This document shows, one piece after another, positions 1-8,978 of a stretch of 64,000 nucleotides of DNA. The first letter of the stretch is position 1; every line of letters starts with the position of its first letter. The notes beneath the pieces are model-generated. The model was not told the DNA's origin and ran no database searches. It saw only the letters and a list, made by a program, of their open reading frames with translations. The translations under genes were made by a program, and so were the position numbers. Origin of the DNA: an uncultured Flavobacteriaceae bacterium (GTDB lineage: Bacteria > Bacteroidota > Bacteroidia > Flavobacteriales > Flavobacteriaceae); assembly GCA_947488435.1 (NCBI GenBank), contig CANKZG010000001.1:1170308-1234307 (forward strand). The letters are read 5' to 3'.

Positions 1-981
1 ATGACCCATAATAATGACCGGTCTTTTTGCCTTCTTTATTAAAGCGATGGCATTATCTGCCATTTCTTTTGGAGGAGCGATTTCCATTGGCGTTATTCGG
101 TTGGCAGGACCTTGCGCTTTTGCTCCTGTTTTGGCTTTACGTTCTTGCACTTCATCGGGAAAGGTCAGGTGAGAAACATCGCGTTTTAAAATAGCATGTT
201 TAACAGCCAAAGACATCAATTCCGCATGCTTACTATCACTTTGAACACGTTGGTTAAATTCTGACACGCTATCGAAAGCTTGAATTAAATCCACTTCCTG
301 AAAATTCCCGGTACCTACAACTTGGGTAGCTACCTGTCCAGTTAGCGCTAAAAAGGGCGCCCGATCTACTTTAGCATCCCACATACCGGTATATAGATTA
401 GTTGCACCAGGACCTGCAATGGTAAAGCAAGCTGCAGGTTTCCCGGTAAGTTTTCCATAAGCCGAGACTGCAAATGCTGCTGCACCCTCATGTCGTATGC
501 CATAAAAATTAAGATTTCCTTGCTGCTCCTGACGCTTCATAGCATCTGCAAAACCCAAATTGGAGTGCCCCACCATTCCAAAGACCTTGGTTACGCCCCA
601 ATTCACCATAGTTTCAACCATGATATCGGATATGGTAGTCTCATGAGTATCTTCAGCTTCAACTCCAACGTAAATAGCCTCATTTTCTTCTTTCACGGCA
701 AAGGTCTCAATACCGTCATCATAACCTCCGGGAGGTAATCCTGTGCAAGGGTGAAAATCCCAACCATGCCATGGACAGCGCAGCATACCATTTTCAATAG
801 AGCCTTCTCCAAGCGGTCCTCCTTGATGCGGGCAGCGATTGTCTAGAGCTGAAAATTTTCCTTCGAAATGGGTAAGGCAGATTCCTTTGTGCTCTGCCGT
901 TACAGTTTTTACTCTTCCTTCAGGGAGTTCTTTTTTGTTATTTAAGACTTTATGCCATACCAGTTTTTTTGTTGAAGCCAT
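1..981 (-). CDS. Rieske-ThDP fusion enzyme (pyruvate oxidase / acetolactate synthase-like), partial
   Basis: The gene begins at an ATG at 981 and runs off the window start, so only the first 327 codons are present. Residues 1-110 form a Rieske [2Fe-2S] domain with ligands C50, H52, C69 and H72 (CPH...CPWHGWDF). A ThDP-enzyme N-terminal pyrimidine-binding domain follows, with the catalytic glutamate E165 in RHEGAAAFAVSAYGK and the GPGATN segment typical of the acetolactate synthase/pyruvate oxidase superfamily. The family decarboxylates 2-oxo acids; the Rieske domain suggests electron transfer to or from the ThDP/flavin centre, which is inference. It is the last visible gene of the Crp-led operon, 17 nt after the DUF2721-like gene. 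The C-terminal cofactor domain lies outside the window, so substrate and FAD binding cannot be judged. Confidence 0.85.
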   Translation of the reverse strand, partial: MASTKKLVWHKVLNNKKELPEGRVKTVTAEHKGICLTHFEGKFSALDNRCPHQGGPLGEGSIENGMLRCPWHGWDFHPCTGLPPGGYDDGIETFAVKEENEAIYVGVEAEDTHETTISDIMVETMVNWGVTKVFGMVGHSNLGFADAMKRQEQQGNLNFYGIRHEGAAAFAVSAYGKLTGKPAACFTIAGPGATNLYTGMWDAKVDRAPFLALTGQVATQVVGTGNFQEVDLIQAFDSVSEFNQRVQSDSKHAELMSLAVKHAILKRDVSHLTFPDEVQERKAKTGAKAQGPANRITPMEIAPPKEMADNAIALIKKAKRPVIIMGH

Positions 982-998
982 AGGTGTATGTTTAATTT

Positions 999-1385
999 TT
1001 ATCTTGATTTGTGATATTGATCTTGTCTAATTTTTACTGCTTTAAAAGAATAGGTGATTAGTAATAGTAACCCAGCAAGTGCACTAATAATACCTGCAAT
1101 TGTTATGTACAATGAAATCCAAAAAAAATGAGTCTCTAAAGTTTCATCTAATCCCGATACTAGGCCAGCTACTACAAAAAAAGCTACAGAGAGGTATAGA
1201 AATACAGAAGCCAGATTAATGCGTTTTAGCTGATTTAATTTTCGTTGCATTAATTTTTCCCCATGATCTCCTTCGGCTATCATTGTTTTAATCTCACTGC
1301 TTAACGCGACCATAATATGGGAGGTGGACATAAGCAATAAGCCAATCCCCGGAACTATTGTAATGGGGACATACCAATTATCCAT
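999..1385 (-). CDS. DUF2721-like membrane protein
   Basis: A 128-residue protein with about three hydrophobic segments: near residues 8-28, 60-80 and 92-112. The charged loop between the first two (KTMIAEGD...RKLNQLKRIN) and the overall layout resemble DUF2721 small inner-membrane proteins, whose function is unknown. Its start overlaps the end of the upstream hypothetical gene by 8 bp, and the Rieske-ThDP gene follows 17 nt downstream, so translation is probably coupled within the operon. The family assignment is from memory of the layout and not from a search. Confidence 0.65.
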   Translation of the reverse strand: MDNWYVPITIVPGIGLLLMSTSHIMVALSSEIKTMIAEGDHGEKLMQRKLNQLKRINLASVFLYLSVAFFVVAGLVSGLDETLETHFFWISLYITIAGIISALAGLLLLITYSFKAVKIRQDQYHKSR

Positions 1386-2136
1386 TATGATCTGTTTTAT
1401 AAGCTAGGAAAGCTTCATTAAAAAAAGTTAAAACATGCTCTCTTGTAATATTGGTAACAGGCAAAATACCTCCCTTAAAACCTTCGTTATGCCATTCACC
1501 ATATGTTAAGGGTTTGAAAGAAGTCGTCGCCATACTATTGTGCCCTTCATATCCGGAAATGTAAAAATAGAAATCGTTATTTGTAGCATCTGGAATTGAA
1601 AGCCCTAAACCCAAACCAATTTTATCAGAAATCATAGCAAAAGCACCTGTATCGAAATGATGTGGCCACGTTCGTATTTCGGAATCCAGAGTTTGCTTTT
1701 TAAGAAAGGTCTCTAACGTCAATTGTGCTAAAATCCTATAGTGCATAAGTTCTTCAAGCCTTCCCATATTAAGCAAGGTATACTTAAAATCAGCTGTAAT
1801 GGAATACGGAAGTTCATAATGAAACTTGTACACATAGGGTTTTGCGATACCTGCATTAGTAGTCATTTGTGCTATCCATGCTAAAACCTCAGCATGCGTA
1901 CTTCCATCTAACCTAAAATCGGTTGTAGTTTGTTTTGTTATCCATTCCAAACTGAAGTTATTGTAATTTAAGGCTAACACCTGTCCCTCATTGTTTAAGG
2001 ATCTAGTCGTCATCCGACCGTTTTCTACAGAGAAGCCTAAATTTGAATGACTATCATCATCCTTTTTTTCTAGAAAACTAATTCCAGCCGCTGCTAAATA
2101 TTGAGCGGCGAAATGCAATTGCTTAACCATGTTCAT
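1378..2136 (-). CDS. hypothetical protein (possible DUF5996-like)
   Basis: A 252-residue, apparently cytoplasmic protein without a signal peptide or membrane segment. It has a WPHHFDTGA motif at mid-length and aromatic-rich C-terminal segments (FYFYISGYEG), which faintly recall DUF5996 proteins; this link is weak. It lies between the outer-membrane barrel gene (38 nt upstream) and the DUF2721-like gene (8-bp overlap), so it is very probably co-transcribed with the Rieske enzymes. No catalytic motif is recognised. Confidence 0.6.
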   Translation of the reverse strand: MNMVKQLHFAAQYLAAAGISFLEKKDDDSHSNLGFSVENGRMTTRSLNNEGQVLALNYNNFSLEWITKQTTTDFRLDGSTHAEVLAWIAQMTTNAGIAKPYVYKFHYELPYSITADFKYTLLNMGRLEELMHYRILAQLTLETFLKKQTLDSEIRTWPHHFDTGAFAMISDKIGLGLGLSIPDATNNDFYFYISGYEGHNSMATTSFKPLTYGEWHNEGFKGGILPVTNITREHVLTFFNEAFLAYKTDHNG

Positions 2137-2174
2137 ATGATGCTCATTTAGTATAATTTTTAAAATATATAAAC

Positions 2175-2699
2175 TTACTCGGCATGTTCTTCTTTTGCAT
2201 GAGATTTTAGAGAAAAAAGAACACCAACAGTTATAAACTCGTCGTTTAACTTACCTAGAATACCTTTGAATTCAGAAAAAACATAGAGCTTTCCAAAATT
2301 ATAATGTATTCCGATTCCATAATTAATTCCAAAGTCGCTCTCTTCTTCAACTTCATCGTCATTGGCAAGAAGACGTTCCTGCTCAATGGTAAAATTGACT
2401 CCAGTTAGCGGGTAAATTTCCAACTCCGGAGCAAGTTCAAAAAAATAGTGTGCATTAACATTAAGGTCTATGACCGAAAGTTCATTTTCTTCATCAATTT
2501 CCTGATATGGAAAATAGGTTACCTCAGGACCAAAACAAAATCGTTCATTTGGACCGTAAAAGAGGCGTCCATTAATTCCGTATAGGCTATTCTCAAGTTC
2601 AATAGAAGGGCCACCACCTACTACTAAAACCTCTTGTGCACTTGCAATTTCAAATGCGAAACACAAAAAAAGAAAACTATATTTAAGATACCCCTGCAT
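2175..2699 (-). CDS. small outer-membrane beta-barrel protein
   Basis: A 174-residue protein with a Sec signal peptide (hydrophobic core FLFLCFAFEIASA, cleavage near residue 21) followed by alternating hydrophobic/polar strands with glycine-rich turns and aromatic strand ends (LYGINGRLFYGPNE, INYGIGIHYNFGKLYVF). This is the pattern of 8-stranded porin/OmpX-like barrels. It overlaps the end of the Rieske-glutamate-synthase gene by 17 bp, indicating one transcript. Its role with cytoplasmic or periplasmic redox enzymes is unknown. Confidence 0.65.
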   Translation of the reverse strand: MQGYLKYSFLFLCFAFEIASAQEVLVVGGGPSIELENSLYGINGRLFYGPNERFCFGPEVTYFPYQEIDEENELSVIDLNVNAHYFFELAPELEIYPLTGVNFTIEQERLLANDDEVEEESDFGINYGIGIHYNFGKLYVFSEFKGILGKLNDEFITVGVLFSLKSHAKEEHAE

Positions 2700-4293
2700 A
2701 ATTAATTCCGGTTAGTTGATGCATATCGTGATTAAAGGTAGATAAGTCATCGTGATTAAATTTTGAAACATCGTCGTATCCACATGATCGTGCGATAACT
2801 TTGATAAGGTCATTGGTGGCTTCGAAATAATTATGAAGCTGCTTTGCCGAAGATTCAATTATAAGTCTGCTTCTTAGCGATTCTTTTTGTGTTGCAATTC
2901 CAACGGGGCAATTATTACTGCCACAAGCTCGCATTCCCAAACATCCTATGGCCTGTAAGGCCGAATTAGAAACTGCAATAGCATCTGCACCAAGCATCAT
3001 TGCTTTGGCAAAATCTTCGGCAATTCTTAGCCCTCCGGTAATAATGAGCGTAACATCGCTCGCTCCTACTTTATCGAGGTACTTACGTGCTCTCGCCAAA
3101 GCTGGAATTGTTGGGACATTAATATTATCACGAAGTATAGTTGGAGCAGATCCTGTTCCTCCTCCGCGACCATCTAAAATAATATAATCAACACCTACAT
3201 CTAAGGCAAATTGAATATCTTTCTCAATATGGCTAGCTGCAATTTTAAAACCTACAGGAATCCCCCCAGTTCTTTCCCGCACTTCCGAAGCAAAGGCTTT
3301 AAAATCTTCAACTCCATGGAAATCAGGAAAAGTTGCCGGAGAAATTGCGGTCTGACCTTGTTGCAAACCTCGCACTTCTGCAATCTCTTTACTGACTTTA
3401 TTTCCAGGAAGGTGTCCCCCTGTTCCTGTTTTTGCACCTTGCCCTCCTTTAAAATGAAAGGCTTGAACCTTATCTAGTTTATCCCAACTAAAACCAAATT
3501 GAGCGGAGGCAAGTTCGTAAAAGTATTTGGTATTATTTTCCTGTTCTTGAGGCAACATACCTCCTTCTCCTGAGCATATACCTGTTCCAGCACGCTCAGC
3601 ACCTTTGGATAATGCTATTTTGGCTTCACGAGAAAGTGCACCAAAACTCATATCACTAACAAATAAAGGAATATCTAACTGTAAAGGCTTTTTTGATTTT
3701 TTGCCTATTACAACTTTAGTGGCTACTTCTTCATGATCTAACAAGGGGCGACTGGCGAGTTGTGCTGGTAAAAATTGAATGTCGTTCCATTTAGGTAAAG
3801 TGTTTCGATCTACCCCCATTGATGCAGAGAAACCATGATGTCCTAAGTTTTTTAAACCATTTTTAGCTAGCTCTTTAATATAGCCTGTGTACGGCTCGGT
3901 ATCTTCAGGATGCGTATCAGCATAAGACCCTAAATATTCTTCTCGATTAAATGGTTGCGGATGTTCAATAAGATAGGCATCAACTTCTGCTTGATCAATA
4001 TAAAGATCATCTCCTTCCACTTTTGAGGTGAATTTATGCAATACCTCATTGTTGTTATATTCTGATACCCCAGTGTCATAACGGTAATCCCATCCATGCA
4101 CACCACAAATTAGATTATGACCTTCAACATGACCATCGGCCATTAGGGCACCTCTATGCAAGCATCGACCATACAATACTGAGATATCAGTATCATACTT
4201 TACAATAACCAAATCCAAACCATTTACCATTGCATGTGTAGGTTTTCGATTTTCTAAGGCGCTTACTTGAGTTAGTTTTATAGGTTGTTCCAT
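2683..4293 (-). CDS. Rieske domain fused to FMN-binding glutamate synthase-type oxidoreductase
   Basis: A 536-residue protein. Residues 1-105 are a Rieske domain with ligands C44, H46, C63 and H66 (CLH...CGVHGWDYR), with the same 16-residue spacing as in the Rieske-ThDP protein of this operon. From about residue 160 to 510 it is the FMN-binding TIM barrel of glutamate synthase: GGQGAKTGTGGHLPG, then ILDGRGGGTGSAPT, IITGGLR, and the C451-x5-C457-x4-C462 signature of the 3Fe-4S cluster. The amidotransferase domain and the GltB C-terminal domain are absent, so glutamine-dependent glutamate synthesis by this chain alone is unlikely. Stand-alone homologues include the alpha subunit of N-methylglutamate synthase. 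The electron path Rieske to 3Fe-4S to FMN is inference. Confidence 0.88.
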   Translation of the reverse strand: MEQPIKLTQVSALENRKPTHAMVNGLDLVIVKYDTDISVLYGRCLHRGALMADGHVEGHNLICGVHGWDYRYDTGVSEYNNNEVLHKFTSKVEGDDLYIDQAEVDAYLIEHPQPFNREEYLGSYADTHPEDTEPYTGYIKELAKNGLKNLGHHGFSASMGVDRNTLPKWNDIQFLPAQLASRPLLDHEEVATKVVIGKKSKKPLQLDIPLFVSDMSFGALSREAKIALSKGAERAGTGICSGEGGMLPQEQENNTKYFYELASAQFGFSWDKLDKVQAFHFKGGQGAKTGTGGHLPGNKVSKEIAEVRGLQQGQTAISPATFPDFHGVEDFKAFASEVRERTGGIPVGFKIAASHIEKDIQFALDVGVDYIILDGRGGGTGSAPTILRDNINVPTIPALARARKYLDKVGASDVTLIITGGLRIAEDFAKAMMLGADAIAVSNSALQAIGCLGMRACGSNNCPVGIATQKESLRSRLIIESSAKQLHNYFEATNDLIKVIARSCGYDDVSKFNHDDLSTFNHDMHQLTGINYAGVS

Positions 4294-4302
4294 AAATAAA
4301 TA

Positions 4303-4680
4303 TTACTTTTTGATTTTAAGTTGATATAGCTTTAGACCTATTAAGGTTGCAAAAATTAAAAACGAAAGATAACACATAGGAATAGAATTATCAGTCTTTG
4401 GACATTCACCGTTTCCTGTTAGTTGTAAAATCGAGGCAACTAATGCGATGATTACAGCGATACTTGTAAAGATAAAATAAAGTTTGGACCATTTTTTTAG
4501 TATATGAGATAGGGCAGGTATGATCAAACAAATGAGAATAATTAAGCAAGCAGGAATACTCCATATTTTTGGACAGCCATCACCACTTTCTAGCTCTTTT
4601 AACACAAGTCCACCGGCTCCATAAATTCCTATAAGAAGCAATAATGTAATACTAAAATCTATAATTTGTTCCTTTTGCAT
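4303..4680 (-). CDS. four-Cys integral membrane protein with duplicated motif
   Basis: A 125-residue protein with four predicted membrane helices (about 8-28, 44-62, 67-88 and 102-121). Two similar loops precede helices 2 and 4: C36-PK...SIPA-C45 and C93-PK...SIP-M-C103, so the protein looks like an internal duplication with paired cysteines. Such pairs could form disulfides or bind a metal or heme. No family is recognised. It sits 9 nt upstream of the Rieske-glutamate-synthase gene and 15 nt downstream of the DUF2062 gene, all in one direction. Confidence 0.7.
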   Translation of the reverse strand: MQKEQIIDFSITLLLLIGIYGAGGLVLKELESGDGCPKIWSIPACLIILICLIIPALSHILKKWSKLYFIFTSIAVIIALVASILQLTGNGECPKTDNSIPMCYLSFLIFATLIGLKLYQLKIKK

Positions 4681-4695
4681 TATATCAATTTAAAT

Positions 4696-5184
4696 TTATG
4701 ATTTAGTTGTATCATATTGTTCATAAGTTTCTTGTTGCTTGATCCGTAATTTTAAAACTCCATGTAATATGATATAAATTAGAAAAGCAATGGGAATCAC
4801 TGTGATAAACCAACCTGCAAAACCATAAAGTAATTCTTTCGCAAGGAATGGGATTGCACTAAAAACTCCCTCTTGAAAACTTGCTTTAATACCCTCAACA
4901 GTAAGTTGCGTATGCTCAGCTCCAAAAAGTGCTCCTCCGATATTTACAAAAGGAATAAATAATAAAATTTTCAAGGGCTCAATCAAATAACTTATAGCAA
5001 TCATTATAGCAAGATTAAAACGATATTTAACAGACATTGCCGTAAGTGCTGGGGTGGCGATACCGTAAAATGGCAAAAGAGAAATTACAAGAGAAATTAG
5101 AACACTCTGAAGCATTTCAATAGGAGTAAGCCCCTGTTTGAAAAGTGCAATAAATCGAAACCAGAGTCTTTTTATGAACTTCAT
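4696..5184 (-). CDS. DUF2062 domain membrane protein
   Basis: A 162-residue protein with the DUF2062 pattern: a basic N-terminus, KQGLTPIEMLQSV, then hydrophobic helices with a PFYGIATPA turn and conserved EPLK...FVNIGG segment, and a C-terminal amphipathic tail. About three or four membrane helices are visible. DUF2062 proteins have no established function but often accompany glycosyltransferases or redox genes. It lies 11 nt downstream of the Crp regulator and 15 nt upstream of the four-Cys membrane protein. Confidence 0.75.
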   Translation of the reverse strand: MKFIKRLWFRFIALFKQGLTPIEMLQSVLISLVISLLPFYGIATPALTAMSVKYRFNLAIMIAISYLIEPLKILLFIPFVNIGGALFGAEHTQLTVEGIKASFQEGVFSAIPFLAKELLYGFAGWFITVIPIAFLIYIILHGVLKLRIKQQETYEQYDTTKS

Positions 5185-5195
5185 GCCAATACCAT

Positions 5196-5852
5196 TTATG
5201 CTAACATAGATATTGTTTTGGTGTTGTAATCAATAATTCCGTTGGAACGAAGTGAACTTAATACGTTACTAACTGTTTGTCTAGAGGTATTTGTTAAGTT
5301 GGCAATATCCTTATGCGACAACAAATTGTCTGCAACTATTTTTCCTCCATCTTGTTCGCCAAAATCACAAATGTACGATTGAATAAATTCGGTAATACGA
5401 GTAGCACTATCCTTATATAACAGGTCTTGAAGCCTCCGTTCTAATCTTTTAATACGCATTCCATAAACTTTAAGAACTCCATTTTTTAGGGAATTATGCT
5501 TTGCCATTAAATCTTCCATAAGGTCATATTCAATAAAACATACAATGCAATCTTGTAGTGCAATAGCTTGTTCTTCCGCTGCTGCTTCTTTATCATAAAG
5601 TGCAAGTTCTCCAAAAATATTCCCCTTTTTTACGACATACTTAACGCTATTATTTTTAACATCAACAATTTTAACCGTACCTTTTTTTAAAAAGAAAATA
5701 CTTTTTTTATGTGGGCTTTGAAGTTTAATGACAGTGCCTTTGTCAATTTGATCCATTTCTAATATTCCGCAGATGCGCATCATGGTAATACGCCCTAGTT
5801 TGTTAAAAAGATTAAACCCTTCTAAAAACCAGTATTTAGTCAAAGTACTCAA
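5196..5852 (-). CDS. Crp/Fnr family transcriptional regulator
   Basis: A 218-residue protein with an N-terminal cyclic-nucleotide-binding-type beta roll (about 25-125, including GNIFGELALYD) and a C-terminal Crp winged helix (about 150-215: DNLLSHKDIANLTNTSRQTV, then LRSNGII). It lacks an Fnr-type N-terminal cysteine cluster, so oxygen sensing through 4Fe-4S is not indicated; the ligand is unknown. It is the first gene of the minus-strand operon that contains both Rieske fusion enzymes and is its most likely regulator. A TAAGTTTG element lies upstream. Confidence 0.88.
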   Translation of the reverse strand: MSTLTKYWFLEGFNLFNKLGRITMMRICGILEMDQIDKGTVIKLQSPHKKSIFFLKKGTVKIVDVKNNSVKYVVKKGNIFGELALYDKEAAAEEQAIALQDCIVCFIEYDLMEDLMAKHNSLKNGVLKVYGMRIKRLERRLQDLLYKDSATRITEFIQSYICDFGEQDGGKIVADNLLSHKDIANLTNTSRQTVSNVLSSLRSNGIIDYNTKTISMLA

Positions 5853-8060: not shown

Positions 8061-8978
8061 TTAATAGAATCTTGGGGATTTAAGTCTTTTTTCAATGGAT
8101 TTAAATTCAAATCTTAAGAATATCTCATGCGTGCCGCTATTAAAATTCCTTAAGTCAGAAGTAGTAAGGTCATAGGCATAACCAACATTAATTGCGGGAG
8201 AAACTTGCAGGCCTAGCAATCCGGAAAAAGAGTCGTCCCAGCGATATGCAATCCCAAAGTTGAAGGTTTCTTTGAATAGGATATTGGCCGAAACATCAGC
8301 AATAGCAGGAGCTCCTGGCACCCATTTTACAAAAAATGCTGGTTTGAATTTTAGATCTGCAGTTAGATCTATTATCTTACCTCCAATTAAAAAATAGTGC
8401 AATCGTTCCGTGGCAATTTCTTGTACGGCACCATCATAGTGTTCCTCCGAGAAAAAATTAGGAACTGCTAAACCAATATAGGATGAGGGGGAATGATAAT
8501 AAATACCAGCTCCTATAGTTGGAAAAAATTCATTTTCAATATTGTTTTGAAAGGCGACATCTGGATTTTCGAAAAGACCTCTAGAAAAATCTACATTAAA
8601 AATACGCCCCCCACCTTTTATTCCGAATGAAAGTTTTTTAGCCTCACTTAGCTGTATGGTATACGAGAAGTTAGCATCTATAAACACTTCGTTAGAAGGC
8701 CCCAATTCATCATTGGTTACTACGAGTCCTAAACCAACATTATTGCCAACTGGTCCCTCTACCGTGAGCACCTGCGAAGTGGGAGCACCATTAATTCCAA
8801 CCCATTGTGAACGATGCAAACCTAAAACCGATAAATGTCCTCGAGATCCGGCGTAAGCAGGGTTTACGGTGATAGTATTGTACATGTATTGGGTAAATTG
8901 TGGATCTTGCTGTCCATAACTGTTTAGGGTTATAAGCAATAGCGCTATGGATAGTATATGTTGAAATTGTTTTTTCAT
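8061..8978 (-). CDS. PorP/SprF family T9SS membrane protein
   Basis: A 305-residue outer-membrane protein with signal peptide MKKQFQHILSIALLLITLNS and the family hallmark QQDPQFTQYMYNTITVNPAYAGSRG-type start just after cleavage, followed by a predicted barrel with the SFGIKGGGRIFNVDF and PRFY C-terminal signature. The start at 8978 is preferred because it follows an A-rich stretch; an in-frame ATG at 9008 would add 10 basic residues. SprF is known to be needed for surface delivery of the type B adhesin SprB in Flavobacterium johnsoniae. Here the gene lies directly between the giant type B protein and the OmpA protein, so it is probably the dedicated partner. Confidence 0.9.
   Translation of the reverse strand: MKKQFQHILSIALLLITLNSYGQQDPQFTQYMYNTITVNPAYAGSRGHLSVLGLHRSQWVGINGAPTSQVLTVEGPVGNNVGLGLVVTNDELGPSNEVFIDANFSYTIQLSEAKKLSFGIKGGGRIFNVDFSRGLFENPDVAFQNNIENEFFPTIGAGIYYHSPSSYIGLAVPNFFSEEHYDGAVQEIATERLHYFLIGGKIIDLTADLKFKPAFFVKWVPGAPAIADVSANILFKETFNFGIAYRWDDSFSGLLGLQVSPAINVGYAYDLTTSDLRNFNSGTHEIFLRFEFKSIEKRLKSPRFY

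Follow-up and report, generated by a model that had tools for sequence, protein, structure and literature searches.

Two Rieske-headed enzymes encoded side by side in bacteria and on archaeal plasmids: a candidate Rieske-wired redox module

We report a conserved association of two Rieske-headed enzymes, encoded in a minus-strand gene run at the start of a 64,000-nucleotide stretch of the genome of an uncultured Flavobacteriaceae bacterium (GCA_947488435.1, contig CANKZG010000001.1, positions 1,170,308 to 1,234,307; hereinafter the window). One of these, RPOX, joins an N-terminal Rieske domain to a thiamine diphosphate (ThDP) enzyme, and the other, RgltS, joins such a domain to the flavin mononucleotide (FMN) core of glutamate synthase (GltS). 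The association is real and conserved and its parts belong to known families; new here is a third Rieske fusion, FerR, a predicted haem-b membrane protein of YedZ type, whose gene in many genomes adjoins that of one or both of the enzymes. We propose that RPOX, RgltS and, where present, FerR form a Rieske-wired redox module, a reading to which we give about even odds. The best-known Rieske clusters are those of complex III/b6f and of oxygenase systems. As far as our literature search reaches, the system is undescribed: the titles and abstract openings covered describe no Rieske-ThDP or Rieske-GltS fusion, rubredoxin-GltS fusions lying outside that search.

The Pfam models recover in RPOX an N-terminal Rieske domain (PF00355, 55.8 bits) and three ThDP domains. 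Its closest solved structure is that of the Escherichia coli PoxB (3EYA; E 3.7e-66 over residues 116-646). RPOX and PoxB (3EYA, 3EY9) have in common the three ThDP domains, the catalytic Glu, the FQ pair and the ThDP Asp; however, the N-terminal Rieske domain is present in RPOX only, and the C-terminal tail of PoxB, which we take to be membrane-binding, is absent from it (45 residues past the alignment in 3EY9 against 5 in RPOX). The top NCBIfam model, PRK08611 pyruvate oxidase, scores 414 bits on RPOX against its cut-off of 742, and PRK09124 scores 302 against 792, both thus falling short. The four Rieske ligands (C50/H52 and C69/H72, the H and the C being separated by 16 residues) are intact in 101/102 aligned RPOX sequences, the remaining one being incomplete at a contig end; this alignment, like the wide alignments of RgltS and FerR, includes at least five genomes twice, once per collection. 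Catalytic Glu165 and ThDP-site Asp552 are kept in all 102, and N579 in 98, with Asp at that position in four haloarchaea. Equally invariant (102/102) is Lys584, which replaces the Phe of the PoxB LGF motif and which, by our own counting from the GDG motif, would correspond to standard position 476 of the ThDP decarboxylases. An excerpted account of these enzymes places that position in the S-pocket or its entrance and gives it as mostly Met or Ile (PMC3534367). As this would put a lysine at a substrate-pocket position, pyruvate is an uncertain substrate for RPOX and serves as a default guess only. RPOX is most likely a cytosolic member of the PoxB lineage of ThDP enzymes, with a predicted 2-oxo-acid oxidase activity. 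In PoxB-type enzymes, the electrons from the substrate are released to flavin. One RPOX gene (L061:9748-11700, genome G086) has an in-frame TAA that splits it into two open reading frames (ORFs) of 447 and 167 aligned residues, reflecting either a broken gene or an assembly error. A Croceitalea genome (G555) has two RPOX loci (L088 and L125), one with RgltS and FerR and one without them.

In RgltS the Rieske ligands are C44/H46 and C63/H66, again 16 residues apart, which bears out the observation of an earlier note, made from the window's sequence, that both enzymes are N-terminally Rieske-fused with an identical CxH-16-CxxH spacing. Its FMN domain carries a C-x5-C-x4-C motif (C451, C457, C462), and its closest solved relatives are glutamate synthase large subunits. 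The FMN domain PF01645 and the three motif cysteines are shared with GltB and Fd-GltS; RgltS, in contrast, has no detected glutaminase domain, with no glutaminase family among its four Pfam matches at E<=0.01, and a Rieske head occupies the N terminus in its place. The canonical GltS stretch ISPPPHHDIYSIED is changed to ISPATFPDFHGVED in RgltS, and a canonical GltB is encoded elsewhere in the window's genome, on contig C4. The three motif cysteines are kept in 89/89 RgltS relatives and all four Rieske ligands in 86, the exceptions having a degenerate head (L073), a CDGSH head (L074) and a rubredoxin-like head (L169), respectively. A GltS core with two CDGSH domains was found at two loci (L052/L074 and L054; by Pfam on L074 and by motif on both), the CDGSH-headed relatives being 65% identical to RgltS in the core. 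CDGSH-GltS fusions are known, from an excerpt of the literature, as the type 5 CISD class (PMC3174974), which resembles RgltS in having an Fe-S head on a GltS FMN core but differs in the head itself. At the one mapped CDGSH-headed locus (L074) neither RPOX nor FerR was seen. Additionally, motif reading, as distinct from Pfam, revealed one or two rubredoxin-like N-terminal domains in 10/10 of the fetched genomes that had the core only in our phylum scan. Because the GltS core also bears CDGSH or rubredoxin-like heads, its head is probably an exchangeable electron-transfer domain. The rubredoxin-like-headed cores (L209-L218 and L169) come from a single Bacteroidota genus group (g201, family f18), in which they occur in ten genomes. 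The degenerate head belongs to a second RgltS paralog (L073:5105-6739, genome G001), 66% identical, which has lost three of the four Rieske ligands and kept the GltS cysteines. The window's genome also has a second match to the GltS FMN domain that stands alone (G000:C2:229219-230175; 268 bits, in a 524-aa frame).

The genes for the two enzymes are closely linked. Among 149 genomes of the family (a count that, like that of the 395 phylum genomes, includes the window's own), RPOX is present in 13, full-length RgltS in 17 and both in 11; in all these 11 the two genes lie within 2.5 kb of each other on one strand. Across the 395 phylum genomes, RPOX is found in 11, full-length RgltS in 48 and both in 10, against an expectation of 1.3, the expected co-occurrence numbers here and below ignoring kinship among genomes; the genes are close on one contig in five of these 10 and on different contigs in the other five. 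A scan of GTDB yielded at least 549 RPOX relatives, from which the best 80 loci were kept, so that the counts lean toward close relatives; 53 of these loci are flanked by 5 kb or more on either side, and L088 and L125 share one genome. RgltS lies within 5 kb of RPOX in 52/80 loci, always upstream and on the same strand, and in 41/53 of those with full flanks. The control of 17 other ThDP-enzyme loci, a weak one with flanks of only 1.5 kb, had no RgltS, FerR or h252 (the 252-aa protein of the window's run) and a single match to the CPA1-type antiporter. The carriers of RPOX, among them marine Bacteroidota, include Flavobacteriaceae, Cyclobacteriaceae, Roseivirga, Saprospiraceae, a Pyrinomonadaceae metagenome-assembled genome (MAG), a Chlorobiota MAG and Shewanella hanedai. 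The pairing of RPOX with RgltS is thus conserved between genera and between phyla, and it spans two domains of life; the lack of conservation that the earlier note had named as telling against its proposal is not what we found.

The second domain enters through plasmids. Full-length RPOX is encoded on plasmids of four haloarchaea (56-57% identity), and one plasmid of Mycobacteroides abscessus also encodes RPOX (51% identity). The Rieske domain was confirmed by Pfam in both copies scanned, those of Halorarius and Mycobacteroides, and the ligands are present in all five. RgltS is on the same plasmid as RPOX in three of the four haloarchaeal records: Rieske-GltS genes lie downstream of RPOX on the same strand in Halorarius (at about 4.0 kb) and Salinirubellus (at about 1.4 kb), the Rieske domain being confirmed in both and the Halorarius protein being 58% identical to that of the window, and in Halorubrum a GltS relative (aligned residues 4-535) is found about 17 kb from RPOX. 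The Haloferax and Mycobacteroides plasmids have no GltS relative reaching 1e-100. Genes for a Na+/H+ antiporter and a K+ channel are situated between RPOX and Rieske-GltS in Halorarius. The Mycobacteroides plasmid codes for a cation:proton antiporter and for a flavodoxin-family protein 57% identical to an FMN-reductase-like neighbor of RPOX in Bacteroidota loci without RgltS. In the haloarchaeal plasmid records, the two enzymes are named merely 'thiamine pyrophosphate-binding protein' and 'glutamate synthase-related protein'.

FerR combines a Ferric_reduct domain (PF01794, 52.1 bits) with a C-terminal Rieske domain, as scanned on the copy at L055, to which that of the window's genome is 63% identical. 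The latter genome has exactly three matches to PF00355 (E<=0.001, all over the Pfam cut-off), namely RPOX, RgltS and FerR. Hydropathy indicates about six transmembrane segments in FerR, and its positively charged loops predict a cytosolic N terminus and a cytosolic Rieske tail. All 37 of 37 FerR sequences retain Arg84, His98, His168 and His181 as well as the Rieske ligands. According to an excerpted survey of the ferric-reductase-domain (FRD) superfamily, YedZ/STEAP proteins are marked by an Arg where the first haem His would otherwise stand, and Rieske is already among the listed domain extensions of the superfamily (PMC3591440). FerR resembles YedZ/MsrQ and FRD proteins in PF01794, in this Arg and in the spacing of the other His residues, but differs from them in its C-terminal Rieske tail and, unlike YedZ/MsrQ, has as genomic neighbors u3, u1, u2 and the Rieske enzymes.

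Within 5 kb of RPOX, FerR is encoded in 28/80 loci, on the same strand in 28/28, a u3-FerR-u2 block following RPOX in 22/80 and preceding it in 6/80. Its association with RgltS extends to loci where RPOX is absent: at L156-L159 FerR with u3 and u2 adjoins RgltS and h252, and it stands beside RgltS in four genomes without an RPOX match (G192, G271, G282, G333). FerR, u3 and u2 occur with both enzymes at L160, and with RPOX at L162, where RgltS is missing from the locus and present on another contig of that genome. RPOX is alone at locus L111, and FerR and RgltS are 0.4 kb apart at another site of that genome; in the genome of L123, FerR and RgltS are 5.5 kb apart on one strand, across a stretch that was not read. 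Across the 395 phylum genomes FerR is present in 13, of which 12 have RgltS (1.6 expected) and 6 have RPOX (0.4 expected). Around the FerR of the window's genome (L075:4828-10851), there are genes for relatives of a further recurrent set, made up of u11-u14 and a YHS protein; this set is also seen near FerR/u2 in several Flavobacteriaceae.

The Rieske domains are related at 37% identity over 102 residues between RPOX and FerR, 28% over 72 between RPOX and RgltS, and 27% over 94 between RgltS and FerR. The possibility, raised in the earlier note, that the heads of the two enzymes are each other's closest relatives was not borne out. In a tree of 80 Rieske domains and 98 columns, the RPOX heads and the RgltS heads form one clade each (support 96/97 and 100/99), and the FerR tails fall into a loose group with soluble Rieske proteins. 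This tree holds a chosen subset of the available RPOX, RgltS and FerR sequences and omits L169 (rubredoxin-like head), L171 (outside the spacing pattern), L189 (FerR already included) and L190 (no ORF by the pattern); the program warned that the columns were few and that long branches met, those of the RgltS heads included. The approximately unbiased (AU) tests reject no grouping (RPOX with RgltS, p 0.35; RPOX with FerR, 0.41; all three, 0.285). Two separate Rieske fusions would be the simpler reading of these sequences. The CxH-16-CxxH spacing is common in Rieske ferredoxins, and the identical ligand spacing proves no kinship of the heads.

From the domain make-up, the intact ligands, the genomic linkage and the other electron-carrier heads on the GltS core, we infer the bound cofactors, substrates, electron direction, topology and physical contacts of the module as follows. 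As RPOX is a PoxB-like enzyme, electrons should leave it rather than enter it, and they would pass from its flavin to its own fused Rieske cluster. RgltS, a predicted FMN/3Fe-4S enzyme of the glutamate-synthase core type, would share with RPOX a small pool of electrons, to which its own Rieske head would wire it and which it could join in either direction; in glutamate synthase itself, electrons reach FMN via the 3Fe-4S cluster. Where present, FerR would constitute the membrane end of the wire, its cytosolic Rieske tail exchanging electrons with the heads and its membrane domain handing them on, either to quinone or to the u1/u2 proteins. The earlier note had envisaged a shared electron donor feeding both enzymes: a shared partner is plausible, with FerR as the candidate, but a donor direction is unsupported. 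More tentatively, we suggest a wiring that spans bacteria and archaea, in which Rieske plugs are attached to unrelated soluble enzymes, here a 2-oxo-acid oxidase with an unusual pocket lysine and a headed GltS core, and FerR serves, where present, as their common socket to the respiratory chain. The antiporter and K+ channel genes suggest use of the module under pH, salt or redox stress.

Several observations weigh against this wiring. The putative coupling is drawn from gene neighborhood alone, and in 23/80 RPOX loci (9/53 with full flanks) both RgltS and FerR are absent from the 5 kb around RPOX. When 26 genomes whose RPOX locus lacks RgltS were searched, nine had a match, one of these being to the core only and one lying in G555. 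RgltS is much commoner than FerR or RPOX (48, 13 and 11 of the 395 phylum genomes, respectively), so it must also work without them. FerR was recovered in only 8/40 searched RPOX genomes without an adjacent FerR (drawn from 52 such loci), one of the eight being G555, counted only because it also holds L088; a universal presence of FerR in RPOX genomes is accordingly rejected, as it is missing from the other 32. Further, an FMN-reductase-like flavoprotein stands in the place of RgltS at 9/80 RPOX loci: RgltS is found at 0/9 of these against 52/71 of the others (p 3e-5), and 8/8 of their genomes searched are without RgltS at E<=1e-100. We claim this replacement at the level of the locus only and claim no strict exclusion, as 9/50 genomes searched in the reverse direction, all nine bearing RgltS, have a flavoprotein relative of 48-55% identity. 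These nine loci would fit the idea of a redox counterpart to RPOX at that place.

A somewhat unlikely alternative holds that these genes belong to a regulon for acid, salt or redox stress, being co-expressed without direct wiring, with each enzyme served by its own generic partners. It accords with the presence, at no more than 5 kb from RPOX, of a CPA1-like antiporter in 42/80 loci (any blastp match at E<=1e-5, some of which may be distant paralogs) and of a K+ channel in 11, with the corresponding transporters of the Halorarius and Mycobacteroides plasmids, and with unrelated neighbors, such as Crp, PycTM, DUF427 and others, that come and go among RPOX loci. However, it leaves unexplained the clustering of three proteins with nothing but a Rieske domain in common, the position of FerR beside RgltS without RPOX, and the exchange of the GltS head for other electron carriers.

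The opposite direction of flow, in which quinol would supply FerR with electrons and the Rieske tail of FerR would in turn reduce RgltS for reductive amination or another FMN-dependent reduction, RPOX using its head for control or in a non-oxidative 2-oxo-acid reaction, strikes us as improbable. The excerpted literature on glutamate synthase, where reduced FMN reduces 2-iminoglutarate (PMC8097209), and the RgltS-FerR neighbors without RPOX would be in keeping with it; on the other hand, the best solved match of RPOX is the electron-releasing PoxB, and the intact head in 101/101 complete RPOX sequences argues against a purely structural role for it. Least of all do we favor the notion that the N-terminal Rieske domains sense redox state or iron and so regulate two enzymes that are otherwise independent, instead of carrying electrons in turnover. 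The G001 paralog, with a head of similar length minus three of four ligands, indicates that the core can persist without a cluster, but it is a single case among 18 aligned family sequences and may be decaying; moreover, the CDGSH and rubredoxin-like replacements share electron transfer and not one sensing chemistry.

The gene run in which RPOX and RgltS occur was described in the earlier note as a Crp-led minus-strand series of eight genes with small gaps and three overlaps. We find the same eight genes in the window, from base 5852 down to its start with the Crp gene first (Table 1), separated by in-window gaps of 11, 15, 9, 38 and 17 nt. With starts taken from the longest ORFs, two overlaps (17 and 8 nt) indeed fall inside the window; the third, of 1 nt between RPOX and the K+ channel gene, lies just outside. 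The window edge cuts the RPOX gene, and its full length along with three further genes was recovered by reading on in the same genome (base 1 of the window being base 8309 of locus L004, on G000:C1), which brings the run to 11 same-strand genes with a largest gap of 38 nt. After the K+ channel gene come those for the CPA1 antiporter (3-nt gap) and PycTM (23-nt gap). From this spacing, we take the run to be an operon. A Bacteroidota-type promoter consensus has zero matches in L004 against 0.95 expected by chance, and counts of sigma-70-like and terminator-like elements are at chance level.

Table 1. Genes of the run and associated features; positions are those of the window unless a locus or contig is named.
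Feature	Position	Strand	Remarks
Crp/Fnr-type regulator	5196..5852	-	PF00027 and PF13545 over cut-offs; start codon uncertain, TTG gives the longest ORF
DUF2062 membrane protein	4696..5184	-	PF09835, 32.9 bits, over cut-off
125-aa membrane protein	4303..4680	-	about four transmembrane segments by hydropathy
RgltS (Rieske-GltS), 536 aa	2683..4293	-	PF00355, 44.4 bits; PF01645, 296.9 bits
Outer-membrane beta-barrel-like protein	2175..2699	-	PF13505, E=1e-5, 26.3 bits, under cut-off of 28.7
h252, 252-aa protein	1378..2136	-	no transmembrane segment predicted; distant DUF5996 relative
DUF2721 membrane protein	999..1385	-	PF11026, 33.5 bits, over cut-off
RPOX (Rieske-ThDP), 651 aa	1..981 (first 327 aa); whole gene L004:7334-9289	-	
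K+ channel (Ion_trans_2)	outside window, downstream of RPOX	same as run	PF07885
CPA1-type Na+/H+ antiporter	outside window, downstream of K+ channel	same as run	PF00999, 204.5 bits
PycTM	L004:4750-5415, outside window	same as run	PF18967, 86.7 bits; last gene of run
M20-type peptidase	L004:3531-4739	convergent to run	past PycTM
FerR of the same genome	G000:C1:821822-822847		about 350 kb from run; beside u3, u1 and u2 of the same genome

The remaining proteins of the run had been regarded as small membrane or outer-membrane proteins of unknown role, which holds in part; some have family matches (DUF2062, DUF2721 and, below the cut-off, the outer-membrane protein). Within 5 kb of RPOX in the 80 loci, h252 is encoded in 34, DUF2721 in 26, u2 and u3 in 28 each, PycTM in 8 and a same-strand upstream Crp in 13; anywhere in these loci, h252 is seen in 43, DUF2721 in 30, the outer-membrane-like protein in 16 and PycTM in 11. 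The DUF2062 protein (1/80) and the 125-aa membrane protein (5/80) are rarely conserved with the module. DUF5996 matches 5/34 relatives of h252 (best E 3.6e-7) and the window's own copy has no family match. Foldseek finds no match at E<=0.001 for the AlphaFold model of h252 (mean predicted local distance difference test, pLDDT, 96); a second structure comparison gave a best Z of 8.5 over 107 residues to a secretion-chaperone fold, and, as unrelated folds follow close behind, we draw no function from it. The u2 model (pLDDT 85) has only matches of low TM-score, among those listed mainly proteins that we take to have the OB-fold, and Pfam scans of u2 relatives gave scattered weak matches only. 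A protein of about 1180 aa without a Pfam match is encoded near RPOX in 17/80 loci (L112:3049-6591 and relatives). PycTM is a Pycsar effector-type protein that here ends a Crp-led metabolic run. M20-type peptidase genes, one of which lies past PycTM, are also present near the module on two haloarchaeal plasmids (L222:15175; L223:12887), possibly by chance.

If the proposed wiring is true, 2-oxo-acid or amino-acid metabolism would be connected to the membrane by a new route. Moreover, a single GltS core that occurs with Rieske, CDGSH and rubredoxin-like heads amounts to a natural experiment on the recruitment of electron carriers.

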